Source: Chitinophagaceae bacterium (GTDB lineage: Bacteria; Bacteroidota; Bacteroidia; Chitinophagales; Chitinophagaceae). From it: a DNA stretch of 64,000 nucleotides. Position 1 is the first letter of the stretch, and the number at the start of each line of letters is the position of its first letter. Positions 4,412 through 36,548 of the stretch are shown piece after piece. Under the pieces are notes generated by a model. The model worked only from the letters and a program-made list of their open reading frames with translations, was not told the origin of the DNA and ran no database searches. A program made the position numbers and the translations under genes. Location of the stretch: NCBI GenBank assembly GCA_024508725.1, contig JANINS010000004.1:142163-206162 (forward strand), read 5' to 3'.

Positions 4412-4422
4412 CTATTGTCCTT

Positions 4423-4578: not shown

Positions 4579-4579
4579 T

Positions 4580-15745: not shown

Positions 15746-15799
15746 ACTGGGCTAATTAGCCAGAATGTAGCATTTTCTAAAGTCCGTAACTTTAAGCCA

Positions 15800-16699
15800 A
15801 TGCCAAAGCAAACTTATTTCACCCGATACTCCCTCATTTTAAAAAGGCTTGAAAGGGGTCCTGCAACATTCGAACAGTTATACCGATATTTGGAAAAGGA
15901 GTTTGACTTGATTGATCAGCCTTTCACATGGTCACGACGAACATTGCAGCGTGATATAAAAGATATTTACGAAAGTTTCCAGGTAGAAATTCTGAATGAA
16001 CAAAAAGGTGACAGATGCTATGTCTTAGCCAGCAAACCGGAAAACCGGCAAATTTCTCAGCGTTTACTGGATGCCTGGGAATTGGTTCACATCCTCAAAT
16101 CATCACAGAATTATTCAGATGCTGTAATGTTAGAAGAAAGAAAGCCTGATGGCTTACAGCATTTTCATGGGTTGTTATTTGCCATTCAGAATAAACGCAT
16201 TACCAGTTTCACCCACATCAAGTATTATGATGATACGATAACTGAACGAAAAGTACATCCACTGGCATTAAAAGAATCATTAGGAAGATGGTACCTATTG
16301 GCGGTTGACACGCATGACGGAAAGCTAAAAACCTTTGGTCTTGACCGCATCAGGGATATTGATATCAGTAAAACAGCTTACCGTGATCAGTATGACTATG
16401 ACGTAAAAAATCTTTTCAAACACTCATTTGGTATTATACAAGGAGATGGTAAACCCCAAAAGATCAGGTTGGCTTTCTCTGATGAGCAGGCTAATTATAT
16501 CAGGAGTTTTCCCTTGCATCATTCCAAGGCAATATTCCACGAAAAGGAGGGCATTGTAGTAAAACTGGAAATGGTCATTACTCACGACCTGATCATGGAA
16601 CTCATGAAGTACGGCCCTGAAGTAAATGTGCTACAGCCTTTATCGTTAAGAAAAAAAATAGCTGCACAGGCAAAGAAGGTGATGCAGTTATACACTTAA
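15800..16699 (+). CDS. WYL-domain transcriptional regulator
   Basis: A 299-residue protein: an N-terminal HTH region (residues ~1-60; FEQLYRYLEKEF, WSRRTLQRDIKDI) and a central/C-terminal WYL domain with the signature around RWYLLAVDTHDGKLKTFGLDRI. WYL regulators bind a small ligand or nucleic acid and often control defence islands as repressors. A TAACTTTA box just before the gene (15787-15794) resembles a Bacteroidota -7 element. With the second WYL protein at 19965 it is a candidate to bind the six inverted repeats downstream (inference). Confidence 0.88.
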   Translation: MPKQTYFTRYSLILKRLERGPATFEQLYRYLEKEFDLIDQPFTWSRRTLQRDIKDIYESFQVEILNEQKGDRCYVLASKPENRQISQRLLDAWELVHILKSSQNYSDAVMLEERKPDGLQHFHGLLFAIQNKRITSFTHIKYYDDTITERKVHPLALKESLGRWYLLAVDTHDGKLKTFGLDRIRDIDISKTAYRDQYDYDVKNLFKHSFGIIQGDGKPQKIRLAFSDEQANYIRSFPLHHSKAIFHEKEGIVVKLEMVITHDLIMELMKYGPEVNVLQPLSLRKKIAAQAKKVMQLYT

Positions 16700-16744
16700 T
16701 TATGAATTGCTGGATAATAAAAGTAAAATGGAACGAGAGGTCTT

Positions 16745-17512
16745 ATGACTACTAATATTTTCGAAGCGTATGCTGATAGCCATGCTGATGGCGTTAATCG
16801 TTACATCAATGGACTTAGCCAGGTTTTATTAGCATATGCTCAAAACAAAATTGGCGATGATACTGAAGTACTGCAAACGCTATTCTCTGAATTTATTACA
16901 CAATCACGGAATTATGAGCAACTTTCTCAGGACCATTCCATCGGGCTGAATATTTTTAAAATGTTGGGTGTATCGGAGGTTTTGCATAGTTACCTGATAT
17001 CAGATCTTTTAGATCCTTTTGGAAGGCACGGGCAGAAAAGATTGTTTTTAGACCTTTTTTTACACCGACTGAAGATAGGCAGTTCCGTAACCGATAACTG
17101 GATAGTGACGGCGGAGACAGGTAGAATTGATATTTTGATCCGGCGGCAATCTCCGCCGACGGTGATCATAATAGAAAATAAATCAAATGGAGCCATAGAT
17201 CAGCCGAATCAATTATACAGGTATTGGTACCAGCAAGTATATAATATAGAGGGTGAAGATGCTTATAAAAATCCCTCCAATAAAATCATATACCTGGCCC
17301 CGGACGATTGGAAAACTCCTGCTCCCGATTCTTTGCTTAAACCAAAACGTTGGCGAAACAATTTGCCTGACAGGGTGACAATTGAACCGATGATTTGGAA
17401 TTACAGGAAAGAAGTGGTGGAGTGGTTGGAAGAAGCTTGCACTAAGATCAATGCTAACAATACAAGAATGTTACAATTCTTAAATCAATATATAGAATAC
17501 TGGAAACAATAA
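16745..17512 (+). CDS. PD-(D/E)XK nuclease family protein (PDDEXK_4-like)
   Basis: A 255-residue protein. LGVSEVLHSYLISDLLDPFGRHGQKRLFLDLFL is the typical opening of the PDDEXK_4 group, and GRIDILIRRQ followed by VIIIENKSNGAIDQPNQLYRYW supplies the nuclease core: Asp, then Glu-Asn-Lys, then Gln/Tyr. The start is the ATG at 16745, 45 bp after the WYL gene. Proteins of this group are common in accessory islands; most are uncharacterised. The next gene starts 10 bp later and may be its partner. Confidence 0.8.
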   Translation: MTTNIFEAYADSHADGVNRYINGLSQVLLAYAQNKIGDDTEVLQTLFSEFITQSRNYEQLSQDHSIGLNIFKMLGVSEVLHSYLISDLLDPFGRHGQKRLFLDLFLHRLKIGSSVTDNWIVTAETGRIDILIRRQSPPTVIIIENKSNGAIDQPNQLYRYWYQQVYNIEGEDAYKNPSNKIIYLAPDDWKTPAPDSLLKPKRWRNNLPDRVTIEPMIWNYRKEVVEWLEEACTKINANNTRMLQFLNQYIEYWKQ

Positions 17513-17522
17513 ATAACATACC

Positions 17523-18098
17523 ATGCATGAAGAATTACTAAACAGATCCATAAGTCTGTTTGATACTTATGATAAGTGGAATGCCTTTTTAGATTTAGCA
17601 GACGCCCGTATTGAGCTTAAGAATTTTTTGTACCGGAAGGGAAAAGCTGAGATAACACAGTACTTCAATACAAAAGATTTAAAAGAGGGATGGTCTTTCA
17701 CTTCCTGGAATAACTGGGATTACCAATGGTATCTTACTGAATTTGGTAAGGATTCACTTTGTATCTGGATGTATGGTAACCGGATCGGTTTATGGTGTAA
17801 TGGGAATTTATTCGATTTGACGAAGGTCTCCACAATGTTATCTAACAGTAAATATTCAGTGTTATTATCACTCTTAAGAAATGACGAAACAGGTACCGGA
17901 GACTGGAAGGTGATAGAATATGGCAATTTTGTTTTCAGCAGCCCATTTGATGGCAAAATTGGCCCTGACCGGCTGGCCTGGTTTGTAGCCAATCATACAG
18001 CAGAATATATAAAGCAGCTGGCAGAGAAGGTGAATAGGTTTAGAGACCCTGAAATGACCAAGTTGTTACGTGAAATAAACGAACATTCAAAAAAGTAA
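17523..18098 (+). CDS. Hypothetical protein, partner of the PDDEXK_4-like gene
   Basis: A 191-residue soluble protein rich in Trp and aromatics (KEGWSFTSWNNWDYQWYLTEFGKDSLCIWMYGNRIGLWCNGN). I recognise no catalytic motif. It begins 10 bp after the nuclease-like gene, so the two are very probably co-translated. Candidate roles such as inhibitor or specificity subunit rest on this arrangement alone. Confidence 0.7.
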   Translation: MHEELLNRSISLFDTYDKWNAFLDLADARIELKNFLYRKGKAEITQYFNTKDLKEGWSFTSWNNWDYQWYLTEFGKDSLCIWMYGNRIGLWCNGNLFDLTKVSTMLSNSKYSVLLSLLRNDETGTGDWKVIEYGNFVFSSPFDGKIGPDRLAWFVANHTAEYIKQLAEKVNRFRDPEMTKLLREINEHSKK

Positions 18099-18206
18099 TG
18101 ACGTAATAGATGATAAGGCGACCCATCTATTGAAACGTGGGGCTATTATTCTTTGAAATAATTTATAAACGTGGTATCTTCCACTTACTCAAACGAAGTG
18201 TACCCT

Positions 18207-18812
18207 ATGACCCCAAAAGAACTCCTAAACTTCCTTGCAAATACTTCAGTTGGCTCTTCTGCTGTAAGAAACCAGGGCAGGGGTATCATAGATGTTATAA
18301 GAGATTGCATTAAGTATGAATTTGATTTTGATAAGTTCTTTTCAGCTTTAACCACCTGTGATGCCAGCTATCAACATTATCTCGACCGTTTTACTTCAGT
18401 TATGGCATGGCTGCCCGGGTTTGATGAGCATGACGAATTAAACGGTCATTATGTAACTTGGGGAACTGCCAGAAAGTGCATTAACCTCTTCATTCGTTCA
18501 TGCGTATATAATAACCGTTTTTGTGAGACTTACGGTTTGCGGGTTAACGATTTCAATACAAAGAGCTATATGCAACGGCTGGAAATTCCTCTTGACAGTT
18601 ATGCTGTGGCAGCGATCAAATTTTATTGTAACAAATTTGAACTTAATCATGATAAAAAACATGTAGATCATTTCAGTATCATCAGCCTTACGCCAGAACG
18701 TTCAAAAGAACTGCAACTTCTTGCTCATTGTATAAGCATTAAGATGGACATGTGCAGAATTGATCTTGATGTCATCTTTTATAAAAATGATAATCTCACT
18801 GACCAGAACTAA
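18207..18812 (+). CDS. Hypothetical protein
   Basis: About 201 residues from the ATG at 18207; a GTG at 18171 in the same frame would add 12 residues. It is soluble with several Cys and His scattered through it, but no clear metal motif and no recognised family. It lies between two nuclease-like genes, 8 bp before the DUF4268 gene, and is read in the same direction. Confidence 0.65.
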   Translation: MTPKELLNFLANTSVGSSAVRNQGRGIIDVIRDCIKYEFDFDKFFSALTTCDASYQHYLDRFTSVMAWLPGFDEHDELNGHYVTWGTARKCINLFIRSCVYNNRFCETYGLRVNDFNTKSYMQRLEIPLDSYAVAAIKFYCNKFELNHDKKHVDHFSIISLTPERSKELQLLAHCISIKMDMCRIDLDVIFYKNDNLTDQN

Positions 18813-18820
18813 ATTAAATC

Positions 18821-19978
18821 ATGTACCTAATCAACAAACAAACCAATGCCATTGAGAACATTAAGGCAGTCACTTTTTCTGAATTAGGTTTTAGAGAAAG
18901 AGGGCATTTACAAGAGTGGCTGGCGGGGCATCCTGAGGCTTTGGGTGAAGAACTGCTGATCATTCAAAAGGAGTTCAGTGGTTTTAATGATACGAATGAA
19001 AGACTTGACCTGCTTGCATTGGATAAGAAAGGAAATATCGTGGTAATTGAAAACAAACTTGACGATACAGGAAGAGATGTAACATGGCAGGCATTGAAGT
19101 ACGCATCGTATTGCTCAACATTAACAAAGGAACAAATACGTAATATTTATCAAGAATATCTTGATAGGAAAGGAACCGGTGACGAAGCTAGGACTAGGCT
19201 TTCCGAATTCTTTAGTAATACGGAGTATGATGAGTTGAGTTTAAACAGCAGGCAATCACAAAGAATAATGCTTGTTGCTGGAAGCTTTAGAAAAGAAGTA
19301 ACATCTACGGTTCTATGGCTTCTGAATTATAAATTGAGAGTGCAATGTTTTAAGGCTACGCCTTACGCGTTAAATGATCAAGTTTTTTTGACAATAGAAC
19401 AAATTATACCAACTAAAGATGCTGAAGATTATGTGATAAGTATGGCAGATAAGGCACAGGAAGATTTTCATACACAGGAGGAGCTAAAAGAAAGGCATCA
19501 CATAAGATTAGCCTTTTGGAATATGTTGTTGCCTAAGATAAAAGGAAGGTCTCCGATATTTCAGAATACCAACCCCACTAAGGATCATTGGTTAAGTGCA
19601 GGGGGTACAGGAATAGCCGGCTTATCTTACGCGTTTGTAGTAACAAGATCGTATGTTTCGGTGGAGCTAACTATTGGTAAAGCTGAAACTGTTGAAAATA
19701 AGCAAGTATTTGATGAACTCATCAGGTTTAAAGATGAAATTACTGCTGCGTTCGGAGATGAGCTTTCGTGGGAAAGACTTGATAATCGAAAAATGTGTAG
19801 AGTAGCCTATTATAAAGAAGGAGTAAGCATCTTCGAAAAACAAGAATGGGAAAGTATGGCAGATTTTTTAATAATGAATATGATAAAACTTGAACAATGT
19901 TTCAGGGAGCCGCTGAAAAAAGTGAAGCAGCAACTGAATGTGCCGAGTGAAGTAATAATAGATTATGCCAAAGGTTAA
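18821..19978 (+). CDS. DUF4268 protein with N-terminal PD-(D/E)XK-like nuclease domain
   Basis: A 385-residue protein. The N-terminal half has ERLDLLALDKKGNIVVIENKLDDTGRDVTWQALKYASY: an Asp, Glu-x-Lys and Gln pattern of a PD-(D/E)XK nuclease (about residues 65-110). The C-terminal ~150 residues (RLAFWNMLLPKIKG to the end) match DUF4268, often found in such nuclease-like proteins in accessory regions. The end overlaps the next WYL gene by 14 bp, so the nuclease and a regulator are translationally coupled. The target is unknown. Confidence 0.8.
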   Translation: MYLINKQTNAIENIKAVTFSELGFRERGHLQEWLAGHPEALGEELLIIQKEFSGFNDTNERLDLLALDKKGNIVVIENKLDDTGRDVTWQALKYASYCSTLTKEQIRNIYQEYLDRKGTGDEARTRLSEFFSNTEYDELSLNSRQSQRIMLVAGSFRKEVTSTVLWLLNYKLRVQCFKATPYALNDQVFLTIEQIIPTKDAEDYVISMADKAQEDFHTQEELKERHHIRLAFWNMLLPKIKGRSPIFQNTNPTKDHWLSAGGTGIAGLSYAFVVTRSYVSVELTIGKAETVENKQVFDELIRFKDEITAAFGDELSWERLDNRKMCRVAYYKEGVSIFEKQEWESMADFLIMNMIKLEQCFREPLKKVKQQLNVPSEVIIDYAKG

Positions 19979-20966
19979 AGACTTCTATAAACGTATTGAA
20001 ATAATTGATGAGTGTTTTCGTCAAAAAGGAAAGAAATGGACTGTTGACAATCTGCTAGAGACTGTCAACGAGAAATTAAGAGATCGTCTGGAAGAAGGCA
20101 TTAGCAAGAGAACATTACAGTATGCCTTAGACCATTTAATAAACGAAAAGCAAGCACCTGTAGGAAAGGAAACTATCGGCAGAGAGGTTTATTACTTCTA
20201 TGAAGATGCCAATTATTCTATCAAGAACTTACCCCTTAATGATGAAGAGATCATCTTATTAAAAGATGCAGTCGACGTAATTAAGCAAATAGGCGGAATC
20301 TCTATCGCCAGCGAGCTGGTAGAAGTAGTTACTAAACTTGAGAATACAATTGGCAAAAAAGAAGCGGAACCAAAGTCTGTAGTTCAGTTTGAAAAACACA
20401 CCCAAATCACTGGGCTAGAGTACCTGCATGATCTTCTAGTTGCGGTAAAACAGAAAATAGCCCTTAATGTGACCTATCAGCCGTTTGGAAAAGAACCTTA
20501 CATTCAAGTGATACACCCATATCTTTTAAAAGAATACAGAAATAGGTGGTTCCTTATTGGTAGAAACGGCGGCTTTAATACACTCTGCAATCTAGCATTA
20601 GACCGTATAAAATCTATAAAAACCGCAAAGAATGATTTTCAGGAGAATGATTTGTTTGATCCTGACACATACTTCAACAGTATGATTGGAGTTTCGTTAC
20701 CAATCAATGCTGAAGTGCAGCATATTATCATAAAAGTGAAAGGTTCTCTTTGCCCCTACATTCGCACTAAACCTATTCATACCTCGCAGAAACATGAACA
20801 AACACTTGAAGACGGAAGCGAATTGTTTACATTAAACGTCGTTGAGAATTATGAATTAAGATCTACACTTCTGAGTTATGGTAATGATCTTGAAGTATTG
20901 CAACCCCAAAGTTTAAGAGACGAGTTGAAGAAGATTTTCAAACACGGAGCAGACATGTATCATTAG
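19965..20966 (+). CDS. WYL-domain transcriptional regulator
   Basis: A 333-residue protein: an N-terminal HTH region (RIEIIDECFRQKGKKWTVDNLLE, then SKRTLQYALDHLI) and a WYL domain (YLLKEYRNRWFLIGRNGGFNTLCNLALDRIKSI; here WFL replaces WYL). The C-terminal region (YELRSTLLSYGNDLEVLQPQSLRDEL) is the usual WYL tail. It ends 1 bp before the first of six inverted-repeat promoter modules, so it is the best-placed candidate regulator of that set. This link is inference. Confidence 0.88.
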   Translation: MPKVKDFYKRIEIIDECFRQKGKKWTVDNLLETVNEKLRDRLEEGISKRTLQYALDHLINEKQAPVGKETIGREVYYFYEDANYSIKNLPLNDEEIILLKDAVDVIKQIGGISIASELVEVVTKLENTIGKKEAEPKSVVQFEKHTQITGLEYLHDLLVAVKQKIALNVTYQPFGKEPYIQVIHPYLLKEYRNRWFLIGRNGGFNTLCNLALDRIKSIKTAKNDFQENDLFDPDTYFNSMIGVSLPINAEVQHIIIKVKGSLCPYIRTKPIHTSQKHEQTLEDGSELFTLNVVENYELRSTLLSYGNDLEVLQPQSLRDELKKIFKHGADMYH

Positions 20967-21443: not shown

Positions 21444-22958
21444 ATGACAGAAGTTATCTTATATCTCGTCTTTGCCTTCGTGGGTGCGTCAATTGCCTGG
21501 ATAATTCGTAAACTCATATTTGAAAAAAACAGTGTCTCTATTACGGAGTTAGATCAAGTGAAACAACAACTGCAGGCAAAATCGTCAGCATTGGCTGTCG
21601 CTGAAAATCATGCGAATCTGTTGAAAGGAGAAAAGCAAGAAATGACAGTCGCCTTAAATGAAATGAATGAAAGACTAAAGGAAGCAACTAATAGCGTAAC
21701 GGCTAAAGCCACTCAAATAGAGAATTTAGATTTGTTATTATCAGATACGAAAACTGCATTGAGCACAGTCAACACTGAAAGTGATCAGTTACGTAGACAA
21801 TTAAGTGAAGCAAGAGAAATTATTGTCAATTTAAAAGCAGAAGCTGAGTTCAGGCAGGAAAAACTAGAAACTCAAAAAACAGAGATCGACAACCTCGGCA
21901 AGAAGTTCGAAGACAGCTTCAAGGTGCTGGCACAGCAAATTTTGGATGATAAAACGAAAACTTTTTCTGAGACACAGGAAAAGAACCTGAAAGGAATATT
22001 AGAGCCTTTGGAGAAGGAGATTAAAAGGTTTAAAGAAGACATCGAAACAAAGCAGAAGCATGAAAGCGAAGAAAGAGTTTCGCTGAAGGAACAGGTGAAG
22101 CAGATGACATCATTGAATCAAACACTCTCTGAACAAGCAAATAAACTTACCGAAACCTTAAGGCTGCAGGTTAAGCAACAAGGAGATTGGGGAGAATCAA
22201 TACTGGAAGCCATACTTGAAAATTCGGGTCTTCAGAAAGATCTCCAATATTTCACGCAACATAGTGCCCGGAATAATGATGGTAAACTTATCAGACCTGA
22301 TGTGGTGGTTAAATATCCAGACGATCGAAAGATCATTATCGATTCTAAGGTATCACTTACACATTATTATAACATGTGCAGTGCCGTAACGGAAGATGAA
22401 CAAAAGGCGTGTCTAGCTCAGCTGATAGCCTCTATTCGCAGCCATATTGACGGGCTTAGCTACAAGAACTACGCTGATATCGCTCAGGCATTGGACTTTA
22501 TCATCATGTTCGTGCCTGTTGAGCCTGCCTACATTGCAGCTATGCATGGCGATCCGGAGTTGTGGCAATACGCATATAAAAGAGGCATACTGCTAATAAG
22601 TCCTGCTAATTTGATCGCAACGCTGAAGTTGGTAAAAGACATGTGGCAGAAGGATGCAGTGGATAAGAATGCACAGGAAATATCGGAGAAAGCTGGAAAA
22701 TTGTATGATAAGTTAGTTGGCTTTGTAGAAACTTTTGAAAAAGTAGGCACTCAGTTAGGGAAAGCGAGTGACTGCTGGGAGGATGCAAGAAAGCAGCTAA
22801 CCTCAGGTAAAGGGAACTTAATCAGCCAGGCTGCTAGAATGAACGCCTTAAAGATTAACTCCAAAAAGGAACTTCCTGAGCAATTGATTAGTGAAGCGAT
22901 ACTGAATGATGATTTAATAATAGAACCGCCAATAGAAGAAACTCTGGAACAAGCATGA
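21444..22958 (+). CDS. rmuC: RmuC-family DNA recombination/nuclease-like protein
   Basis: A 504-residue protein with one N-terminal membrane segment (residues ~3-20), a long coiled coil to about residue 240, then the RmuC core: GDWGESILEAILENSGL, RPDVVVKYPDDRKIIIDSKVSL (a PD-(D/E)XK-like Asp...Asp-Ser-Lys) and the AALDFI/FVPVEPAY region. RmuC limits certain DNA rearrangements, and rmuC relatives often travel with restriction systems. It is the first gene of the unit under module 2, and its last codons overlap the next gene (ATGA-type, 4 bp). Confidence 0.9.
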   Translation: MTEVILYLVFAFVGASIAWIIRKLIFEKNSVSITELDQVKQQLQAKSSALAVAENHANLLKGEKQEMTVALNEMNERLKEATNSVTAKATQIENLDLLLSDTKTALSTVNTESDQLRRQLSEAREIIVNLKAEAEFRQEKLETQKTEIDNLGKKFEDSFKVLAQQILDDKTKTFSETQEKNLKGILEPLEKEIKRFKEDIETKQKHESEERVSLKEQVKQMTSLNQTLSEQANKLTETLRLQVKQQGDWGESILEAILENSGLQKDLQYFTQHSARNNDGKLIRPDVVVKYPDDRKIIIDSKVSLTHYYNMCSAVTEDEQKACLAQLIASIRSHIDGLSYKNYADIAQALDFIIMFVPVEPAYIAAMHGDPELWQYAYKRGILLISPANLIATLKLVKDMWQKDAVDKNAQEISEKAGKLYDKLVGFVETFEKVGTQLGKASDCWEDARKQLTSGKGNLISQAARMNALKINSKKELPEQLISEAILNDDLIIEPPIEETLEQA

Positions 22959-25678
22959 CATTACACGAAGCAATAGAAGTCGTATTACGAGAAGCTCGAC
23001 GTCCTTTGAAACCGTCGGAAATCGCAAATACAATTAATTCAAGAAGATTATACTTAAAGGGTGATAGTAGTGAAGTTGGAGCTAACCAAGTTTCTGCCAG
23101 AGTAGCTAAACACGCTGATTTATTTCGATTAACCCAACAGGGTGTCTCTCTTCATGATATTAGTCTTAAGCCTTACCGTGACTTCATGTTGAGATTAACG
23201 GATATCCTGCGAAAAAACCTTCCGGCCGATGCGATTATTATTAACGATCATGTAGCATCATTCATGACATTAATCTATCATCAAGGTCATGACACTCCGA
23301 TATCTCCTAACGATATCTATTCACCGAAAGGGTTTATCATCTCTTTGTTTAGAACAGTCGAGAATAGAGATCCAAAACTGCTCAACCTTTTTGATGATAC
23401 AGTTCATTTGGTATCGTCGATTTTATCCGAGTTCGAAACTGAACAGATTTTAAGATTAATTGCAAGCTACCGGTTTATCGAGCTGCCAAAACCTTCTCGA
23501 GAGGAGTTTAGCTCATTCTTTAATGATACGGTTAACTTTTTTAATTGGAGAAATAATTTCAAAGGAGGAGAATTATCAACTCCAACGATTTTATCAACTC
23601 TTATGGCGTCTTTATACCAGCTACCGCCAAATTCAACGGTATTTGATCCATTTGCTGGAAGAGCAAGCACTTTATTCGAACTCGTACAAAAGCATAGGGA
23701 GGATATCCAAGAAGTGGTAGCTGGAGATTTAGTTCATAGTTCAATTGTTTCCGGCTCCTTGAATTTATATAATTCGGGATTGCAGAACTTTCAGTATGAA
23801 AAATGTGATGCGTTTCTTGGGTGGAAGAGAAAGATAAATGCAGATCTTTTCATTTCTAATCCACCATTTGGAGGGAAATATAACTTCTATGATCATCATA
23901 CTGAATGGCAATTTGAACCCACTACGGATAGCAGCTCTAATGTTATACAACTTGCATTATTTCATTTAGACCACAAAGGAAAAGCAGTACTAATTCTGCC
24001 GGAATCTTTTCTATTCAACAGTAATAAACCTGCAGTTGCTTTAAGAAAGCGTTTGATCGAAGACGATATTTTACATGGGCTTATCCTACTGCCTAAGAAT
24101 TCATTCAAGCCTTTTACGTCAGCTAATGCAGTAGTCGTTCTTTTGGACAAGAGTAAAACAAGTAAGAGTACTGGGATTTACATTTATGATGCGTCTGATG
24201 TTGCTGTAGGCGACTTACAAAATGAAGTAGGTGATATTGCAAGTGCTTTCCATAGTGAGGTTTCCAAAAAAGATAAGGCACGTTGGGTGCGGAAAGAGGA
24301 ATTTGAGAAAAACAGGTATGACTTTTCCGTCAAGCGTTATCTATTACAGGATTTGGAAGGAGCAGGATTTACTAAACTAAAAAATCTGATAGAGGAATAC
24401 TTTATTGGAGCATATATACCCTCTGACAATCTTAATAGCGTCGAAGGTATTCCTTACATCCAAGTTGGAGATCTATCAGATAGAGAAGGCTTAGAAACTA
24501 TAGCAAAGTCAAACATTAAGAGCTACATATCAGATATCGAGCTCGTGAACCCCTCAGTTAGAAGAGTTGAATCAGGATGTGTTTTGATTGCAAAAGTTGG
24601 TGCAAAACTTAAGCCTACTCTCTTTGATGAGAAATATACAGCAATACCAAGCTCAAATATTGTCGTTTTACGACCGAAATCAAATGTTATCTCTGCTGAA
24701 TATTTGATTTCTCAGCTTCAAAGCGAGTATGTTCAACAACAAATTGATGTTATTAGAAGGTATAATACTATTCCAAGCTTCAATTTGAAAGATTTATTAG
24801 AGACTAAAATCAAGATACTGACCTATGTAGATCAGCAAAGGTATGTCGCCACTTACTATTCCAGAAAAGCCACTATAATTGAAAAAGCTGAAGCAAAAAG
24901 CAAAGACGATGAACTGTACAACCTGATATCGAGAATTAAACATGAGGTGAAGCAGCCTGTATCCTCAATTGGTATCGATATTTCAATTTTGCTAGATTAT
25001 TTATTACAAAAACAAAATGAAAATGATACTATCTCTCTGCAAGATTATGCTATAGAACCGCTGCCGGGGCAGAATGACAAAGATTTGGAAGCTACAAAGG
25101 TCATCAATATCATAAACCGGATTAAAGCTTCAGTTGAAGATGCACAAGAAACCCTAACTAAAGCAGAAGAAACCCTTAATATCGGGAAAGGTGCTATCAA
25201 ACTCCAGGGTGTAGAAATTAAACATTTTCTTGAGACTAAGATATTCCCGTTGTATGCTAATGCCAACTGCCTTCTTGAAGTTACAGGGAAAGAATATGTT
25301 GTATCAGGGGACGAATACCAATTGAAAGTTTTATTCAAGCATTTAATTGATAATGCTCTCAAATATGGATTTTTTAAAAGAACTAAGAAGGATGAGAATT
25401 TAATTAGAATAGAATTAAACAAAGATGTTCAGAGGAGTTTTGCCGAAATCATTGTAATGAACAACGGTGAACCATTTTCAAAGGGATTCAATAAAAAGAT
25501 TTTTGAAACAAAGGGGTTGACCAATAACCGAGATAATGGTTCTGGCTTTGGCGGCTATCACATTAAACGAATTATAGAAAACCATAAAGGTGAATTTTAT
25601 ATAGCACCGGAAGAAGAAGTTCAGTTCAGTGAGTTCAAAGTGAAATTCAAAATTTATTTACACTTAAATCTCAAGTAA
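22955..25678 (+). CDS. HARE-HTH / N6-adenine methylase / HsdS-like / histidine-kinase-like fusion protein
   Basis: A 907-residue protein with domains in an unusual order. Residues 1-70: HARE-HTH-like (PLKPSEIANTINSR). Residues ~190-400: a class I N6-adenine methylase core, motif I FDPFAGR (230-236) and catalytic NPPFGG (302-307). Residues ~470-625: a target-recognition-like region similar to an HsdS half (YIQVGDLSD, IPSFNLKDLLETKI). Residues ~655-905: a histidine-kinase-like module with IKHEVKQP (putative phospho-His663), N-box HLIDNALKYG (Asn800) and a GSGFGG lid (862-867). It overlaps rmuC by 4 bp and the receiver-like gene by 1 bp. It may modify DNA and signal to its neighbour (inference). 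Confidence 0.8.
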   Translation: MTLHEAIEVVLREARRPLKPSEIANTINSRRLYLKGDSSEVGANQVSARVAKHADLFRLTQQGVSLHDISLKPYRDFMLRLTDILRKNLPADAIIINDHVASFMTLIYHQGHDTPISPNDIYSPKGFIISLFRTVENRDPKLLNLFDDTVHLVSSILSEFETEQILRLIASYRFIELPKPSREEFSSFFNDTVNFFNWRNNFKGGELSTPTILSTLMASLYQLPPNSTVFDPFAGRASTLFELVQKHREDIQEVVAGDLVHSSIVSGSLNLYNSGLQNFQYEKCDAFLGWKRKINADLFISNPPFGGKYNFYDHHTEWQFEPTTDSSSNVIQLALFHLDHKGKAVLILPESFLFNSNKPAVALRKRLIEDDILHGLILLPKNSFKPFTSANAVVVLLDKSKTSKSTGIYIYDASDVAVGDLQNEVGDIASAFHSEVSKKDKARWVRKEEFEKNRYDFSVKRYLLQDLEGAGFTKLKNLIEEYFIGAYIPSDNLNSVEGIPYIQVGDLSDREGLETIAKSNIKSYISDIELVNPSVRRVESGCVLIAKVGAKLKPTLFDEKYTAIPSSNIVVLRPKSNVISAEYLISQLQSEYVQQQIDVIRRYNTIPSFNLKDLLETKIKILTYVDQQRYVATYYSRKATIIEKAEAKSKDDELYNLISRIKHEVKQPVSSIGIDISILLDYLLQKQNENDTISLQDYAIEPLPGQNDKDLEATKVINIINRIKASVEDAQETLTKAEETLNIGKGAIKLQGVEIKHFLETKIFPLYANANCLLEVTGKEYVVSGDEYQLKVLFKHLIDNALKYGFFKRTKKDENLIRIELNKDVQRSFAEIIVMNNGEPFSKGFNKKIFETKGLTNNRDNGSGFGGYHIKRIIENHKGEFYIAPEEEVQFSEFKVKFKIYLHLNLK

Positions 25679-26544
25679 TGAAACCGATCAATGTTCTTAT
25701 GTATGAAGATAATGTTCCTTATAGCGAAAGCTTTAAATTGAAAGCGCAGCAGAAAAGGATTCTTGTCGAAATCACTAATAATGTAGATAATTTGCTCGAA
25801 GCACTGGAAGCGAATCCAAGAAAGCACAAATTTGTGGTGCTTGATGCCAGAGCTTATTTGCATGAGGGACAAACCCAGGGAACTGAATCGGAAGCAAATT
25901 TGCACAAAATATTTAAGCAAATTGATCGAATTGCAAAAGCCCAAGACAGAGTAATTCCATATTGTGTAAATACGGGTTTTGCCGAAATAAAACTTCAATA
26001 TAACGAAGTACTGGAGTGTCCTATTTACGAAAAAGGACAAGAAGATGACCTCATTGAATTCATTTGGCAAACGTATAACGACACAGATGCAGCCAAACTC
26101 AGACAAGACTTCCCAGAGCCATTTGATTTCGCTGATAGCTATTTTGATGATGCTGATTTAGAAGTATTATCCCAGCTGCTGTATAAAAATGCCTTTAAGT
26201 CTGAAAAGATTGCTGACAGAATCGATAACCTTACTAGACTTCGACGTATAGTAGAGCACACCATGGATATTATTTATCATCATCACCTAAATCAACAATC
26301 TGGAATAATTCGCAATCGATCCTCAAGAGCCTCAGATATTACTAATTATTTAAAAGGATTAGGGGTTGTGCCTCCGCAGATTTCTGGTTCAATTTTTAAT
26401 ATTCTGAGTACAGCAAGTAGCTTTGGAAGCCATACACCAGAGCAGGCTGAACAAATTGAAGATTATCCGACAAGTAATTCGATTGTAAGTCTCACCTTTG
26501 GGCTGTTCGAAATTTTTATTTGGGCAAAAAAACTATTAAACTAA
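25678..26544 (+). CDS. Receiver-like (response-regulator-like) protein with unknown output domain
   Basis: A 288-residue protein. The first ~120 residues look like a receiver: an acidic pair at Glu10/Asp11 (MYEDN), and VVLDARAYL placing Asp56 where the phosphorylated Asp sits. A clear conserved Lys near residue 105 is not obvious. The helical C-terminal part (SQLLYKNAFKSEKIADRIDNLTRLRRIVEH to the end) is unrecognised and has no HTH. Its start overlaps the stop of the kinase-like fusion (1 bp), which makes it the natural phosphorylation partner. hsdM starts 3 bp after it. Function inferred. Confidence 0.65.
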   Translation: MKPINVLMYEDNVPYSESFKLKAQQKRILVEITNNVDNLLEALEANPRKHKFVVLDARAYLHEGQTQGTESEANLHKIFKQIDRIAKAQDRVIPYCVNTGFAEIKLQYNEVLECPIYEKGQEDDLIEFIWQTYNDTDAAKLRQDFPEPFDFADSYFDDADLEVLSQLLYKNAFKSEKIADRIDNLTRLRRIVEHTMDIIYHHHLNQQSGIIRNRSSRASDITNYLKGLGVVPPQISGSIFNILSTASSFGSHTPEQAEQIEDYPTSNSIVSLTFGLFEIFIWAKKLLN

Positions 26545-26547
26545 CCC

Positions 26548-28053
26548 ATGCTAACTCCCGATCTCCGCTCTGATATAGACAAAATTTGGAACGCCTTCTG
26601 GACTGGTGGTATTTCAAACCCGCTAGCTGTTATTGAACAGATCACTTACCTGTTGTTCATTAAACGGCTGGATGAGTTACAAATTCTGAAAGAGAAGCAA
26701 GCTACTTTATTAGGTGAAGCTATTGCAAAGCCTATTTATACTGAAGAACAAAAGCAATTACGCTGGAGCACCTTTAAAGATCTCGATCCTGAGAGCATGC
26801 ACCGTATGTTCACGAAAGATGAAGGTGTATTCGATTTCATGAAGAACTATGGCAGCAAAGACAGTGCATTTGGCAAATTCATGAAAGGTGCTGTGTTCAT
26901 GATACCTACACCAAGGTTATTAAGCAATGTTGTTGACATGATCAGCAACATTGATATGAAGGATAGAGACACCAAGGGTGATGTATATGAGTACCTGTTA
27001 AGCAAGATCGCTACTGCCGGACAAAATGGACAATTCCGTACTCCTCGTCATATCATCAAGATGATGGTGGAATTGATGCAACCAACACCGGATGATGTGA
27101 TCTGTGACCCCTCTGCTGGAAGCTCAGGTTTTCTGGTTACCGCAGCAGAATACCTGAGAGAAAATCATAAGCAGGCATTCATGAAAGAAGAGTTCAATAA
27201 CTATTTCTCTTCCGAAATGTTTATGGGTATGGAGTTCGACCCCACTATGATTCGCATTGGTGCGATGAACATGATCCTTCATGGTATTGAAAATCCTCAG
27301 TTAAAAGATGTAGATGCCTTGAGTGAAGCTAATAGCTCATTTACAGAGCAGGCAACACTTATTCTTGCCAATCCTCCATTTACCGGTAGCCTGGACAATG
27401 ATGCCGTTGATGCTTCAATTTTGAAAACTGTATCGAGCAAGAAAACTGAACTGTTATTCCTTGCTTTAATTCTGAGAGGGTTGAAAAAAGGCGGAAGGGC
27501 TGCAGTGATCATACCGGACGGTGTGTTGTTTGGCAGCAGCAAAGCACATAAGCAGATAAGGCAGGAGATTATTGATAAACATAAACTGGAAGCAGTGATC
27601 TCAATGCCAAGCGGTGTGTTTAAGCCTTATGCTGGTGTAAGTACCGGTATTCTCATCTTCACCAAAACAACTACTGGTGGCACAGACAAGGTTTGGTTTT
27701 ATGATATGAAAGCTGATGGATTAAGTCTGGATGATAAACGTACCGAACTGGTGAAAACCGGACCAAACGAAACAATGAAATTTCCGGAAGATTTCGCAGA
27801 CATAAAGGATATTATAGGTAGATATAAAAAGCTTTCAGCAGAAGCAAATCGAACCAGAACAGAACAGAGTTTCTTTGTGCCAGTTGATGAGATAAGAAGT
27901 AATGGCTATGATCTAAGCATAAATCGATATAAAGAAGTGGTATACGAAGAAAAGAAGTATGATAAACCTGAGGTAATTATTTCGCAGATAAAAGAATTGG
28001 ATAAGGAAAGAATTTCTGCACTAACTGAATTAGAAGGATTACTCAAAAATTAA
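26548..28053 (+). CDS. hsdM: Type I restriction-modification methylase subunit HsdM
   Basis: A 501-residue protein of normal HsdM length. An N-terminal helical HsdM_N region (DIDKIWNAFWTGGISNPLAVIEQITYLLFIKRLDE) precedes the methylase core with motif I DPSAGSSGF and catalytic NPPF (LANPPFTG). With HsdS it methylates adenine within a bipartite target. It follows the receiver-like gene by 3 bp, so it shares the transcript with the fused methylase: two different N6-methylases in one unit. Confidence 0.95.
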   Translation: MLTPDLRSDIDKIWNAFWTGGISNPLAVIEQITYLLFIKRLDELQILKEKQATLLGEAIAKPIYTEEQKQLRWSTFKDLDPESMHRMFTKDEGVFDFMKNYGSKDSAFGKFMKGAVFMIPTPRLLSNVVDMISNIDMKDRDTKGDVYEYLLSKIATAGQNGQFRTPRHIIKMMVELMQPTPDDVICDPSAGSSGFLVTAAEYLRENHKQAFMKEEFNNYFSSEMFMGMEFDPTMIRIGAMNMILHGIENPQLKDVDALSEANSSFTEQATLILANPPFTGSLDNDAVDASILKTVSSKKTELLFLALILRGLKKGGRAAVIIPDGVLFGSSKAHKQIRQEIIDKHKLEAVISMPSGVFKPYAGVSTGILIFTKTTTGGTDKVWFYDMKADGLSLDDKRTELVKTGPNETMKFPEDFADIKDIIGRYKKLSAEANRTRTEQSFFVPVDEIRSNGYDLSINRYKEVVYEEKKYDKPEVIISQIKELDKERISALTELEGLLKN

Positions 28054-28460: not shown

Positions 28461-29606
28461 ATGAAAGATTGGCAAAAAATTGCTTTAGGAGAATTAGTTA
28501 CAATCACAAAGGGTAAAAAGCATGTTGAAACTGATGATGTTTCTGCATTTCGCTATTTGCAAATAGAGGATCTGAATGGTCATTACACAACGAAGTATAC
28601 AAAAGAAACAGGAACTCATGTTCATGAGAAAGATATAGTGATTGTGTGGGATGGTGCAAATGCCGGAAAAGTTGGATGCGGATTTGCGGGAGTTATTGGT
28701 AGCACTTTAGCAAGACTTTCATTCAAAGAAGAGAAAATTGAAACCAGATTTGTCAAGCGTTATCTCGACTATCAATTTGAGTTTATTAAGTCTCAAAGAA
28801 CAGGTGCGACAATTCCTCACGTCTCCTCAGATGCATTAAAGAAATTGATTGTACCACTTCCTGCTTTTTCGATACAACAAAAAATAGCTGCTATTCTCGA
28901 CAAAGCAGATGAGCTTCGTCAAAAAGATCAACAGCTACTTACCAAGTATGATGAATTGCTGCAAAGCATCTTTTACCAGATGTTTGGTGATCCAGTGAAG
29001 AATGAAAAAAGATGGACCAAGGTTAAACTTGAAACCATTTGTGATGTAGGATCGAGCAGAAGAGTATTTGTAGAAGAATTAGTTGAAACGGGAATTCCAT
29101 TTTATCGAGGTACAGAAATTGGAGTATTAGGTTTAGGTGAGAATATCACCCCAACATTATTTATAACAAAAGAACATTATGAAAGCTTAAAAAAAGAGAC
29201 TGGAGTTCCTCAAATTGGAGACTTGCTACTCCCTTCAATTTGTCCTGATGGAAGAATTTATGAGGTATCAGATACTACTCCTTTTTATTTCAAAGATGGT
29301 CGAGTCTTATGGATAAAGGTTAATAAAACAAAGATCAATAGCACTTTCCTAAAAATATTGCTGAAACAAATCTTTTATTTAGACTATTCTAAAATTGCAT
29401 CTGGAACCACTTTTTCCGAGTTGAAAATTTTTGAGCTAAAAAAGCTTCAAACACCTCTTCCTCCATTTGAATTACAAAATAAATTCGGCTGCATCGCTCA
29501 AAATCTTCTAGCTCAAAAGGAAATCATGCGGCGTGAAAATCAAGCGAGTGAACAGTTGTTTCAGTCTCTTCTGCAAAAAGCCTTCAAAGGAGAACTCGTA
29601 AGTTAG
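28461..29606 (+). CDS. hsdS: Type I restriction-modification specificity subunit HsdS
   Basis: A 381-residue protein with the two target-recognition domains and connecting helices typical of HsdS. TRD1 is about residues 1-135, the first helical spacer follows (IQQKIAAILDKADELRQKDQQLLTKYDELLQSIFYQMFGDP), TRD2 covers ~185-335, and a second spacer ends in SLLQKAFKGELVS. It sets the bipartite DNA target of the HsdM/HsdR complex. It is the last gene of the module 2 unit; its TAG stop is 1 bp before module 3. Confidence 0.95.
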   Translation: MKDWQKIALGELVTITKGKKHVETDDVSAFRYLQIEDLNGHYTTKYTKETGTHVHEKDIVIVWDGANAGKVGCGFAGVIGSTLARLSFKEEKIETRFVKRYLDYQFEFIKSQRTGATIPHVSSDALKKLIVPLPAFSIQQKIAAILDKADELRQKDQQLLTKYDELLQSIFYQMFGDPVKNEKRWTKVKLETICDVGSSRRVFVEELVETGIPFYRGTEIGVLGLGENITPTLFITKEHYESLKKETGVPQIGDLLLPSICPDGRIYEVSDTTPFYFKDGRVLWIKVNKTKINSTFLKILLKQIFYLDYSKIASGTTFSELKIFELKKLQTPLPPFELQNKFGCIAQNLLAQKEIMRRENQASEQLFQSLLQKAFKGELVS

Positions 29607-30350: not shown

Positions 30351-33300
30351 ATGAATAGCAACTTCTCATTTTTACAACAAGAATTCAACGAGATGTACGA
30401 TACTGCTTATCGGGCAGAGCAGTATGTGTACAGCGATCCTGTGTCTTGTGCCATTCATTGCAGAAGAAGCCTGGAGCAATTTGTAAAATGGTTGTATGAG
30501 AACGATTCTGACCTGGAGAAACCTGTAGATACTACGCTGAATTCCTTATTACATGAACCAAGTTTTCAAAAGCTGCTTCCCTTTACGCTGTTTCGGCAGG
30601 TGAACCTGCTAAGAAAGATTGGAAATGTTGCCGTTCACACTACGAAGAACATTAGCGAAAGAGAGGCATTATCAGTAGTCAAAATACTGCATGATTTTGC
30701 ATTATGGGTGGTCAGGTTATACAGCAAAGCCCAAACTCCGGTTCATACTTTCAACGAAGCCGTTATTCCTACTGAGAGAATAGTGGCAATGAAATTTCAG
30801 AAACAAACCAGACCTGAAATTTTTGAGGGACTTGTTAATTACAGCCTGGCTTCAGAGCCATCTGTTCATTTGGAAGAAACACATTCTAAGCTTTACAAAG
30901 AGATTAAAGAAGCCAATCTTCAGAACCTCGAAGTCCAGCAGCCTCCATCCAGCTTAACCGAAGCAGAAACAAGGAGAATATACATAGATGCTATGCTGAA
31001 AGAAGCTGGCTGGGATCTTACTCAACCTAATGTAATTGAATTTGAACTTCAGCATATAAGTGATCCTGACAGTAGTCGCTATGCAGATTATGTGCTTTGG
31101 GGAGATAATGGAAAGCCTTTGGCAGTTGTTGAAGCCAAGAAAACCCTGGTGGATGCCTACAAAGGAAAAAGGCAGGCTGAGGTATATGCCGATTGCCTGG
31201 AGAAAATGTTTGGTCAGCGTCCGATTATCTTCTTCACCAATGGATATGAAACACAAATATGGGATGATACTTTTTATCCATACAGGCAGGTAGAAGGATT
31301 CTATTCAAAAGAAGAGTTAGAACTGCTAATTAACCGGAGAACTTTACGAAAGTCGTTAAGCAGTCATCCAATTAACACCGACATAGCTGACAGATATTAC
31401 CAGGCTGAAGCGATCAAAAGAGTAGCAGAAGATATAGAAGCAGGAAGAAGAGGTGCTTTATTAGTCATGGCTACAGGTAGCGGAAAAACAAGAACCGCAG
31501 CTGCAATAGTTGACCTGCTCACCAGTTGTAACTGGGCAAAGCGAATTTTATTTTTAGCTGATCGAAATGCACTTGTGACGCAAGCAAAAAATGCATTTAA
31601 TACTTATCTGCCAAACCTTACTTCAATTGATTTGACGAACGAAGACGCAGATACATCAAGCCGGATCATCTTCAGCACCTACCCTACAATGATGAACCGG
31701 ATCGATAATACCAAAGTAGAGGGAAGACGCTACTTTGGTATTGGGCATTTTGACCTGGTGATCATTGATGAGGCACACAGGAGTATATACCAGAAATACA
31801 AGGCACTGTTCCAATATTTTGATGCATTATTCATTGGTTTAACAGCAACCCCTAAAGCTGAGACACATAAAGACACTTATGAGCTTTTTGGTCGTGAGAT
31901 GCATAATCCAACTTACGCATATGAGTTGGATAAGGCTGTGAATGATCAGTATTTAAGACCTCCGAAGGCTATTCCTGTACCAATGAAGTTTCCAAGAGAA
32001 GGCATCCGATACGACGATCTTTCTGAACAGGAAAAAGAAGAGTACGAAAAGGAATTCCTTGAAAACTTTGGAGCAGTACCTGATGAAGTATCAAGCACTG
32101 CAATCAATACCTGGTTATTTAATGAAGATACTGTGAACAAGGTATTGGAGCTGTTAATGCAGAAAGCACTTCGGATTGAAGGTGGAGATAAATTGGGTAA
32201 GACAATCATTTTTGCGAAGAACCACGAGCATGCTGTCTTCATCGAGAAGTGCTTCGACAAACTATTCCCAAAGTATGCAGGTAAGATGCTGAAGGTGATT
32301 GACAACTACTCTTATGATGCTCAATCAATGATTTATGAGTTTTCTGATCCTGAAAAAACTGAGTTCCAAATTGCTGTTTCTGTAGATATGCTGGATACGG
32401 GTATCGATATTCCCGAAATACTGAACCTCGTTGTTTTCAAACCAGTCAGATCAAAAGCCAAGTGGTGGCAGATGATTGGTAGAGGTACAAGGCTGCGGAA
32501 GGATCTTTTTGGTCCCGGATTGGACAAAGAGTTCTTTTACCTGTTTGACATATGTGGCAATATTGAATTTTTTAAGAGTGATATAAAAGAAACTGAACCT
32601 GGTTTAAGAGGTACTTTAAGTGAACAGATATTTAAGGTAAAATTGAATCTTGCTTTCCTGTTGCAGCAAAGCCCTTCAGAAGAAAATAAGGAATTGCAGC
32701 ACCAGTTAATTCATGAATTGCACAGTATAGTGGCTGGGTTTTCAGCTGATGATTTCAGAGTTCGAATGAAGTTACAATGTGTGGATAAGTACAAGGACTT
32801 ACAACAATGGAATGCACTTTCGCAACTAGAAGTAATAGAAATCGATCAGCATCTGGCTCCGCTATATTTAGATGAAGATTCAAATGAGTCTGCAAGAAGG
32901 TTTGATTTGATGATGCTGAATTGCATGATTGCAAAACTTGAGCAGATGCCAAGAGAGCAGTTATATAGAATGCAGGTGCAGGATACTGTAAGAGGGCTGC
33001 TGAAAAAAATGGGTATTCCTGCAGTAAAGGCTAAGGAAAACCTGATAAAGTATGTTTTAGAAGATGAATTCTGGCAGCAAGCTGACATTGCCGGGCTTAA
33101 TACTACAAGATTGGATTTGCGTGATCTGGTACAATACATAGATCCCAGCAGAAGAAAAAACCTATATACAAACTTCGAAGATGAGATAGGTGAAATCCAG
33201 GTACAAGAGATGATTGCAACTTATCAGGAACTCGGTAGTTATAAAAGAAGAGTAGAAAAATTCATTAGAGAAAACAGGAACCACATCACCATCCACAGAA

Positions 33301-33704
33301 TTTGCAATAATCAGCCGATCACAAAAGAAGAACTAACTGAACTTGAGAAACTCCTATTTTCTATTGATACCTCTATTACCCAAGAGGCATTTGATAATGT
33401 GATCGGTCGGCAGCCATTAGCCAAGTTTGTCCGTTCAATTTTAGGCTTAGAAGTGAATGCAGCCAAAGCTGCATTTGCTGCATTTCTACAAACTGAAAGA
33501 TTGAACGCTACGCAACTACACTTCATCAACACCATTATAGATTATCTCACCGTAAATGGCACAATAGATAAAAAGATGCTGTTCAGTAAGCCGTTCACTG
33601 ATATTAATGACCAGGGATTGGCTGGAGTATTTGATATGGAAACAGCCGGAACGATTGTGAGGATTATTGATGAGATCAATGGGAATGTGGTGGAGGTGGG
33701 GTAG
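30351..33704 (+). CDS. hsdR: Type I restriction endonuclease/translocase subunit HsdR with N-terminal DUF4145-like domain
   Basis: A 1117-residue protein. Residues ~1-125 resemble DUF4145 (CAIHCRRSLEQFVKWLY, VNLLRKIGNVAVH), which is often fused to such subunits. The nuclease domain follows with ADYVLWGDNGKPLAVVEAKK (Asp...Glu-x-Lys) and a QAEVYAD segment. Then the helicase motor: Walker A MATGSGKT, DEAH box IIDEAHRS, and LTATP. Motif VI is seen as MIGRGTRL. It cleaves and translocates unmodified DNA with HsdM/HsdS. It has its own promoter module, separate from hsdM/hsdS. It ends in TAG directly before module 4. Confidence 0.95.
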   Translation: MNSNFSFLQQEFNEMYDTAYRAEQYVYSDPVSCAIHCRRSLEQFVKWLYENDSDLEKPVDTTLNSLLHEPSFQKLLPFTLFRQVNLLRKIGNVAVHTTKNISEREALSVVKILHDFALWVVRLYSKAQTPVHTFNEAVIPTERIVAMKFQKQTRPEIFEGLVNYSLASEPSVHLEETHSKLYKEIKEANLQNLEVQQPPSSLTEAETRRIYIDAMLKEAGWDLTQPNVIEFELQHISDPDSSRYADYVLWGDNGKPLAVVEAKKTLVDAYKGKRQAEVYADCLEKMFGQRPIIFFTNGYETQIWDDTFYPYRQVEGFYSKEELELLINRRTLRKSLSSHPINTDIADRYYQAEAIKRVAEDIEAGRRGALLVMATGSGKTRTAAAIVDLLTSCNWAKRILFLADRNALVTQAKNAFNTYLPNLTSIDLTNEDADTSSRIIFSTYPTMMNRIDNTKVEGRRYFGIGHFDLVIIDEAHRSIYQKYKALFQYFDALFIGLTATPKAETHKDTYELFGREMHNPTYAYELDKAVNDQYLRPPKAIPVPMKFPREGIRYDDLSEQEKEEYEKEFLENFGAVPDEVSSTAINTWLFNEDTVNKVLELLMQKALRIEGGDKLGKTIIFAKNHEHAVFIEKCFDKLFPKYAGKMLKVIDNYSYDAQSMIYEFSDPEKTEFQIAVSVDMLDTGIDIPEILNLVVFKPVRSKAKWWQMIGRGTRLRKDLFGPGLDKEFFYLFDICGNIEFFKSDIKETEPGLRGTLSEQIFKVKLNLAFLLQQSPSEENKELQHQLIHELHSIVAGFSADDFRVRMKLQCVDKYKDLQQWNALSQLEVIEIDQHLAPLYLDEDSNESARRFDLMMLNCMIAKLEQMPREQLYRMQVQDTVRGLLKKMGIPAVKAKENLIKYVLEDEFWQQADIAGLNTTRLDLRDLVQYIDPSRRKNLYTNFEDEIGEIQVQEMIATYQELGSYKRRVEKFIRENRNHITIHRICNNQPITKEELTELEKLLFSIDTSITQEAFDNVIGRQPLAKFVRSILGLEVNAAKAAFAAFLQTERLNATQLHFINTIIDYLTVNGTIDKKMLFSKPFTDINDQGLAGVFDMETAGTIVRIIDEINGNVVEVG

Positions 33705-36539: not shown

Positions 36540-36548
36540 ATAATTCAA

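Follow-up and report, generated by a model that had tools for sequence, protein, structure and literature searches.

What is a histidine kinase doing at the end of a DNA methylase, in the middle of a type I restriction operon? The question is raised by a locus in a Chitinophagaceae bacterium (GenBank assembly GCA_024508725.1; 3.88 Mb, eight contigs), which we analyzed as a stretch of 64,000 nucleotides, referred to here as the window (contig JANINS010000004.1, positions 142,163 to 206,162; coordinates below count from its first letter). Restriction–modification (R-M) systems are usually regarded as autonomous, the methylation state of the DNA alone deciding whether it is cut. We conclude, with a probability of about 0.66, that the fusion protein and the product of the next gene make up a soluble two-component signaling cassette, the sensor having arisen from a methylase of type I restriction and the receiver acting on the defense operon. 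The predicted sensor consists of an HsdM-like domain, one HsdS-like target-recognition domain (TRD) and a HisKA-type kinase, and the predicted receiver is encoded directly downstream. Among the aligned relatives, the signaling sites predicted in the two proteins are invariant and the distances within the pair co-vary; a WYL regulator gene travels along, and the restriction modules alongside are many and unrelated. If this reading is true, restriction can be put under the control of a signal, and the histidine kinase would take its input from DNA or from an anti-restriction protein. The locus would also be a case in which to study how self-damage is limited in cells and how they might respond to the anti-restriction proteins of phages.

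The sensor kinase and its receiver

The first-pass annotation of this DNA had described two open reading frames (ORFs) on the + strand, at 22955-25678 (907 aa) and 25678-26544 (288 aa), which overlap by 1 bp and lie between rmuC and hsdM, and we found them exactly so. The larger protein had been proposed to join HARE-HTH, N6 methylase, HsdS-like TRD and histidine kinase regions, a composition borne out by Pfam, PADLOC and profile searches, and the residues singled out in the two proteins (H663, N800 and GSGFGG; E10, D11 and D56) are all in place. The features of the locus are as follows:

19965..20966, + strand: WYL/WCX-domain transcription regulator, 333 aa (Pfam WCX 2e-13, WYL 1.4e-9)
21444..22958, + strand: RmuC-family protein (Pfam RmuC 5.9e-98)
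22955..25678, + strand: methylase-derived sensor histidine kinase, 907 aa (Pfam, PADLOC, fold and profile evidence)
22955..23137, + strand: HARE-HTH, sensor residues 1-61 (Pfam 2e-6)
23534..24343, + strand: N6-adenine methylase-like domain, sensor residues 194-463 (Pfam N6_Mtase 1.1e-27)
23645-23659, + strand: sensor methylase motif I, DPFAG (motif)
23858-23869, + strand: sensor methylase motif IV, NPPF (motif)
24362..24823, + strand: single HsdS-like TRD, sensor residues ~470-623 (PADLOC Specificity_I 1.4e-9)
24824..25018, + strand: predicted continuous helix, sensor residues 624-688 (AlphaFold2 model)
24941-24943, + strand: codon of the predicted phospho-acceptor, His663 (conservation)
25307..25642, + strand: HATPase_c (CA) domain, sensor residues 785-896, with N box N800, G1 box NNGEPF and G2 box GSGFGG (Pfam 1.2e-8)
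25678..26544, + strand: receiver partner, 288 aa (fold, profile, conservation)
25678..26082, + strand: receiver (REC) domain with E10/D11, D56 (codon 25843-25845), T99 and K119 (fold, conservation)
26086..26541, + strand: helical output domain, receiver residues 137-288 (near-invariant R189, E193, S251, H252)
26548..28053, + strand: hsdM, type I methylase subunit (Pfam N6_Mtase 6.5e-65, HsdM_N 1.8e-14)
28461..29606, + strand: hsdS, specificity subunit (Pfam Methylase_S 8.5e-27)
30351..33704, + strand: hsdR with N-terminal DUF4145 (Pfam ResIII, HSDR_N, EcoEI_R_C, DUF4145 2.9e-12)

Relatives were collected as 84 loci with a sensor ORF, from which 71 non-redundant sensors remained, window included, 69 of them with a receiver. 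Nine loci were removed as >90% identical duplicates, and ORFs of less than 700 aa were left out: L046 (stops), L047 (contig end), L065, where 377 bp with an intervening ORF separate sensor and receiver, and L093, where no receiver was found. The 71 sensors are a non-random sample, most of them found with patterns of one subfamily. The receiver gene lies no more than 70 bp downstream of the sensor in all 69 loci in which it was found, and the two sensors without one (L073 and L075) end at contig ends. Two loci have unusual sensor genes. L046 (843-4000) is a decaying copy, in which several stops interrupt the sensor gene and a receiver that looks intact lies alongside together with WYL, and L108 (7568-11956) has a 1463-aa sensor ORF with several hundred extra N-terminal residues, in which there is no Pfam match, and RmuC nearby.

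Pfam recognizes HARE-HTH, N6_Mtase and HATPase_c in the 907-aa sensor, all above curated cut-offs, and HATPase_c in 51 of 54 sensors scanned (E ≤ 0.01; loci other than L019-L045). A profile of the kinase part, built from eight sensors including that of the window, matches 32 distinct solved sequences at E ≤ 0.001, which are named as sensor proteins or histidine kinases. HK853 (2c2a) was matched over both the dimerization and histidine phosphotransfer (DHp) and the ATPase domains (E 4.3e-13), and the invariant sensor His aligns to its HELRTPL motif. H663 is kept in all 71 sensors, window included, and N800, G864 and G866 in all 70 that have a residue aligned there. In the AlphaFold2 model of the sensor (54 sequences, mean pLDDT 76), one helix, residues 624-688, exits the TRD and bears H663. 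It is plausible in this model that the helix is the signal path from the TRD to H663.

The window receiver has no Pfam receiver match at E ≤ 1, and Response_reg was found in one of eight receivers, weakly (0.087). The first-pass annotation had called the protein receiver-like; it is a divergent REC protein, and a true receiver. Residues 1-139 model as a receiver fold (VIA Z 14.5 to PorX), Foldseek gives a TMt of ~0.7 to the DivK and PmrA receivers, and a 16-member receiver profile finds solved receivers, the best at 8.2e-5. Furthermore, the catalytic set (the acidic pair, D56, T99 and K119) is intact in 69 of 69 receivers, that of the window among them. Because the signaling sites are conserved on both sides, a His-Asp phosphorelay between the predicted sensor and receiver is likely. 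The first-pass annotation had named a missing kinase match, a missing receiver match and an assembly error as ways in which it could be wrong. The kinase match was found (HATPase_c 1.2e-8, HK853 4.3e-13), as was the receiver match, by fold and by the 16-member profile, profile and fold searches standing in for HHpred in these checks. The same architecture in 71 non-redundant loci led us to reject an assembly error or a frameshift fusion.

The fold matches are limited to the receiver half of the partner protein. The rest is a helical output domain without a Pfam match in the window receiver, in which R189 and H252 are both kept in 68 of 69 receivers. The exception, L023, has a Schlafen AlbA_2 domain instead (6.4e-15); this variant receiver (L023:2438-3385) is followed by genes for an McrB-like AAA protein and McrC (3403-6686). 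Fifty-two of the 69 receivers extend at least 45 residues past the C-terminus of the window receiver, and 17 of 53 match the S1/CSD-like OB domain of TOTE conflict systems (E ≤ 0.1, best 2e-6), which hints at nucleic acid as a candidate target. An R..E plus SH pattern had raised the suspicion that the output domain is of HEPN/DUF4145 type. This was unsupported by profile comparison: hhalign against DUF4145 of 17 HsdR N-termini gave a probability of ~1%, and the output domain ranked 5th of 46 among 45 decoy segments. The DUF4145 of the window HsdR (30351-33704) has an R..LE plus H pattern that resembles the output domain, without statistical support.

The methylase head and the restriction partners

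The top Foldseek matches of the sensor head are type I methylase subunits, 7eew, 7vs4 and 2okc among them. PADLOC type I specificity models match residues ~458-656 (best 1.4e-9). Pfam Methylase_S was found in 35 of the 54 sensors scanned and had no match in the window sensor. The HARE-HTH-like N-terminus is limited to the sub-branch of the window (4 of 71 sensors: the window, L020, L039 and L043) and was rejected as a core part.

To count as canonical under a strict rule, a protein had to have [DE]PxxG at motif I and [NDS]PP[FYW] at motif IV; a loose rule also admits Asn in motif I. Both motifs are canonical by the strict rule in one of 71 sensors, that of the window, compared to 45 of 46 HsdMs of the same loci (those similar to the window HsdM; 58 were found by clustering and 51 by phmmer). 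The motif I Asp is replaced by Asn in 63 of 71 sensors. In 35 of 71, motif IV departs from the canonical form; catalysis has thus probably been lost in about half of the family and may persist in the rest. The window sensor, with both predicted motifs kept, may still methylate. The first-pass annotation had suggested that DNA modification is built into the unit; with 1 (strict) or 35 (loose) of 71 sensors keeping the motifs, against 45 of 46 HsdMs, the suggestion is not supported in that form.

Mean pairwise identity across the sensors is 0.35 for the methylase (MTase), 0.35 for the TRD and 0.34 for the ATPase domain. On average, the sensor TRD is not hypervariable, unlike HsdS: its mean identity is 0.66 at a methylase identity of 0.6-0.7 and 0.76 at ≥0.7 (with single pairs down to 0.24), whereas mean HsdS identity is at most 0.39 even where HsdM is at least 0.9 identical. 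Since the motifs are rarely canonical and the TRD is not hypervariable, the methylase part is best read as a putative repurposed sensor rather than a modifier. We also considered that the sensor reads the site of the neighboring HsdS. The locus's own HsdS was the best TRD match in only one of 55 loci and was found at all in 33 (mean 14.4 bits for own, 11.6 for others), and this idea was rejected. The best reading of these comparisons is that the head would read something fairly constant, not the site of the neighboring restriction enzyme.

The neighboring module is a type I R-M system, with hsdM, hsdS and hsdR all present in the window (Pfam, PADLOC), in agreement with the first-pass annotation. 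The genes are tightly packed: rmuC and the sensor gene overlap by 4 bp, the sensor and receiver genes by 1 bp, and 3 bp separate the receiver gene from hsdM. Next to hsdM comes a 128-aa ORF that resembles no family convincingly, and then hsdS, an ORF with weak likeness to vWA, and hsdR. Clustering of four genes upstream and eight downstream of the sensor in the 71 loci found HsdM in 58, WYL in 57, HsdS in 55 and HsdR/SF2 in 43, with the HsdM, HsdS and HsdR clusters all present in 40. The WYL relative lies within three genes upstream in those 57 loci, and directly upstream in 49. By a single phmmer rule, WYL was found in 61 of 71 sensor loci versus 0 of 18 control hsdM loci, which were taken from class genomes regardless of sensor, several of them cut by contig ends; the controls were also without sensor or receiver. 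A clustered HsdM was absent from 13 of 71 loci, some of them cut by contig ends, and WYL was still present in eight of these. Other genes come and go. A cluster with DUF2130 as its scanned member occurs in 8 of 71 loci, a DUF2130 gene lies between WYL and the sensor in L043, and RmuC is found in L108 too; RmuC was rejected as a core part and is an optional member (RmuC or DUF2130 recurs). McrB/McrC-like genes follow in L023, and GmrSD proteins occur in L019, L025 and 4 of 48 pooled neighbors. An AAA_15 ATPase (L024), a phospholipase D (PLD) protein (L098) and, upstream, a NACHT protein (L020) are found as well.

How the genes were inherited was assessed from distance correlations (Spearman ρ, with 200 shuffles tested against the observed Pearson value), which are uncorrected for common ancestry and for saturation where identity is low. 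For the sensor and receiver, ρ is 0.83, with 0 of 200 shuffles reaching the observed value. Within the restriction module, ρ is 0.85 for HsdM and HsdR and 0.70 for HsdM and HsdS (0 of 200 in both). Between the two, it is 0.05 for sensor and HsdM (23 of 200), 0.09 for sensor and HsdS (29 of 200) and 0.11 for sensor and HsdR (4 of 200); sensor and WYL give 0.22. Because ρ is 0.83 within the pair versus 0.05-0.11 to the hsd genes, the sensor and receiver appear to be a portable unit, putatively inherited together and recombined with different restriction modules. Instead of the single unit that had been described initially, the locus is better seen as two cassettes, one for signaling and one for restriction, shuffled against each other.

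Proposed mechanism, alternatives and known systems

The cassette probably controls the adjacent restriction defense. In the mechanism that we propose, the sensor would dimerize via its kinase helices, with two methylase/TRD heads facing DNA or a protein that mimics it. Once the heads are engaged, a change would pass down the helix that leaves the TRD (corresponding to the spacer helix of HsdS) to the helix with His663, and autophosphorylation would be altered, as would the transfer of phosphate to Asp56 on the receiver. The receiver's output domain, which is helical, might then switch the defense operon, whether via the WYL regulator and transcription or through an action on RNA or on the subunits of the restriction enzyme. 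For most relatives, a head that reads DNA would be more probable than one that writes on it.

A number of observations weigh against this reading. Pfam HisKA has no match in the window sensor (E ≤ 1) or in the 54 sensors scanned (E ≤ 0.01); the predicted H-box helix is divergent from that family. Most HisKA kinases carry an acidic residue, the general base, right after the phospho-acceptor His. This acid is kept in just five of 71 sensors, including that of the window (E664), while 47 have T or S, and kinase activity in many relatives is therefore uncertain. All 70 aligned sensors have Asn in place of the G1-box Asp; so does the 3a0r kinase, which we take to be ThkA, an active kinase. The block around the 624-688 helix is of middling confidence (pLDDT 57-87) in what is a monomer model. 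Under the loose rule, 35 of 71 sensors keep both methylase motifs and are possibly catalytic. On the output side, no DNA-binding output domain was found on the window receiver, and transcriptional output of the receiver is therefore putative. Ten of 71 loci are without a WYL gene in the stretch available, some of them cut by contig ends. The lack of correction in the distance correlations, noted above, belongs here too.

Considerably less probable, in our judgment, is that the C-terminal domain of the receiver is itself an effector (e.g., a HEPN-like RNase, leading to cell shutdown) and the pair a stand-alone abortive infection system that merely shares an operon with restriction. The near-invariant polar residues R189, E193, S251 and H252 resemble an active site more than an interaction surface, and the AlbA_2 domain at the output position in L023 (6.4e-15), the TOTE S1/CSD-like OB matches (17 of 53), the C-terminal extensions (52 of 69) and the interchangeable restriction partners would all fit an effector. 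However, the DUF4145 comparison gave no support (~1%, 5th of 46), the helical domain of the window receiver has no Pfam match, and the HsdM cluster is present in 58 of 71 loci, a frequency that may be too high for an incidental neighbor. That the sensor is a working methylase, which both marks DNA and signals, its kinase reporting the modification state or the occupancy by S-adenosylmethionine (SAM), we regard as unlikely. The window protein retains DPFAG and NPPF, 35 of 71 sensors have a plausible motif pair once Asn is allowed in motif I, and the MTase and TRD equal the ATPase domain in conservation (0.35 and 0.35 against 0.34). Yet 63 of 71 have Asn for Asp in motif I and 35 of 71 a non-canonical motif IV, compared to 45 of 46 HsdMs intact, and L020, L023 and L039, which have the best motif I besides the window, have DLPS or DLPI at motif IV.

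The kinase itself could be questioned. GHKL ATPases found beside R-M systems are known as paraMORCs (PMC2292703; this and the other papers cited below are represented by their accessible parts), and the acid after His663 is absent in 66 of 71 sensors, so one might picture the GHKL part as an ATP-driven conformational machine that does no phosphotransfer, with a receiver-like partner that only binds. A pure ATPase needs neither an invariant His nor a REC set, however, and with His663 invariant in 71 sensors and aligned on the HisKA motif of HK853, and the full REC phosphorylation set invariant in 69 receivers, we consider this very unlikely. A more specific version of the input, to which we assign a low probability, is that the sensor head is a restriction-enzyme decoy: a mostly dead mimic of HsdM and half an HsdS, with a constant TRD, bound by Ocr/ArdA-like anti-restriction DNA mimics of phages or by a fixed DNA feature, binding of which would fire the His-Asp phosphorelay and a second layer of defense. 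If true, restriction would have a guard system, assembled out of one of its own enzymes and a two-component switch.

Returning to a signaling cassette acting on the defense operon, its closest published counterparts are soluble histidine-kinase-like proteins (HEF_HK, PF19191) with adjacent receiver-like proteins (Response_reg_2, PF19192) near R-M genes, which their authors speculate control R-M systems (PMC8011034). The first-pass annotation knew of no described system with this arrangement; in the literature searched, this stands for the fusion architecture, whereas two-component pairs beside R-M genes are in print in that paper. The likeness lies in a soluble kinase and receiver side by side near R-M genes. 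In the accessible part of the paper, the N-terminus of HEF_HK is GHKL HATPase_c_3 or nothing known, none of the four architectures listed has a methylase or TRD, and the neighbors are especially type II R-M systems with C5 methylases and Vsr (PMC8011034). The window sensor differs in its HARE-HTH and methylase N-terminus in place of HATPase_c_3, and its family partners mainly with type I systems. The window pair had no match to PF19191 or PF19192 (E ≤ 1), 54 sensors matched 12 families, none of them PF19191, and PF19192 was not found in eight receivers; for a set of 53 receivers, 25 of the 38 families are listed.

Another comparison is with Detocs, which is reportedly best known with a purine nucleoside phosphorylase (PNP) effector. 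Detocs is a defensive two-component system of three genes, which degrades ATP (PMC11249213). Both are two-component systems, that of Detocs being used for phage defense. The cassette described here differs in having two genes, a methylase/TRD sensor, one receiver followed by hsdM, and no recognized effector domain. The sensor head resembles the type I methylase M2S (HsdM/HsdS) in its HsdM fold and half an HsdS, but it is a single chain with mostly changed motifs and a TRD that is not hypervariable, and the helix after the TRD continues into the kinase. As in the paraMORCs of R-M operons (PMC2292703), a GHKL-fold ATPase is encoded with restriction genes; in the sensor described here, in contrast, the HATPase lies at the C-terminus after a HisKA-type helix whose His is invariant, and a receiver is dedicated to it. 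The BrxR/CapW repressors of BREX and CBASS are likewise WYL regulators in defense operons (PMC12255303), whereas the WYL gene here accompanies a predicted phosphorelay pair, and repression by it is putative. HATPase and REC are named among the domains of computationally predicted defense systems (PMC13092281), which might include a relative, and Schlafen RNases fused to a minimal histidine kinase occur near BREX (PMC12839542). Our literature searches, the coverage of which excluded most subscription papers and bioRxiv preprints, returned no recognizable account of a methylase–histidine kinase fusion. In the searches made, a two-component cassette with a methylase-derived sensor is thus undescribed, and it is widespread, being found again in dozens of further species.

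Distribution and wider surroundings

The fusion was present in 7 of 395 genomes in an even sample of the phylum, own genome included, a count that missed one genome (G150) found later by profile. With a more sensitive profile, it was present in 12 of 345 genomes in an even sample of the class, again including its own; one of these 12 loci is broken by stops and one lies at a contig end. When one subfamily was used to scan a species collection, 67 loci were obtained. Nearly all are from Bacteroidota; outside this phylum were single metagenome-assembled genomes assigned to Leptospiraceae and Fibrobacter. A search of genome contigs with the window receiver alone gave no confirmed match. On plasmids, tblastn with the window proteins gave no match, whereas the relative from L021 matched three plasmids of Myroides and, in part, one of Cetobacterium. 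The gene order on the Myroides odoratimimus plasmid is WYL, "N-6 DNA methylase" (the sensor), "hypothetical protein" (the receiver), methyltransferase, subunit S, hypothetical protein, phospholipase D-like and subunit R. Because of such annotation, in this one public record, the cassette is easily overlooked; it is also easily mined. A 43.9-kb IMG/VR contig (L121) has a sensor relative followed by a 409-aa ORF, so that a prophage or another mobile element may carry the cassette.

In the window, hsdR is followed at 34018-40231 by an apparent TOTE-type conflict system with a reverse transcriptase (RT). The RT (34018-35664; Pfam RVT_1 1.4e-25) and a 292-aa ORF precede a RecD-like helicase with a TBP-TOTE domain (2.1e-29) and a TPR-DUF7017-S1CSD-TOTE protein. 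RT genes were also found near the sensor in L023 and L089. Upstream, at 14663-19978, lie genes for an AAA ATPase, a second WYL/WCX regulator (15800-16699) and a PD-(D/E)XK nuclease, together with two ORFs that Pfam does not recognize and a DUF4268 protein, a gene content that suggests a longer defense island. The AAA ATPase has a 45% relative near the sensor locus of G150 (L025, 14651-15730).

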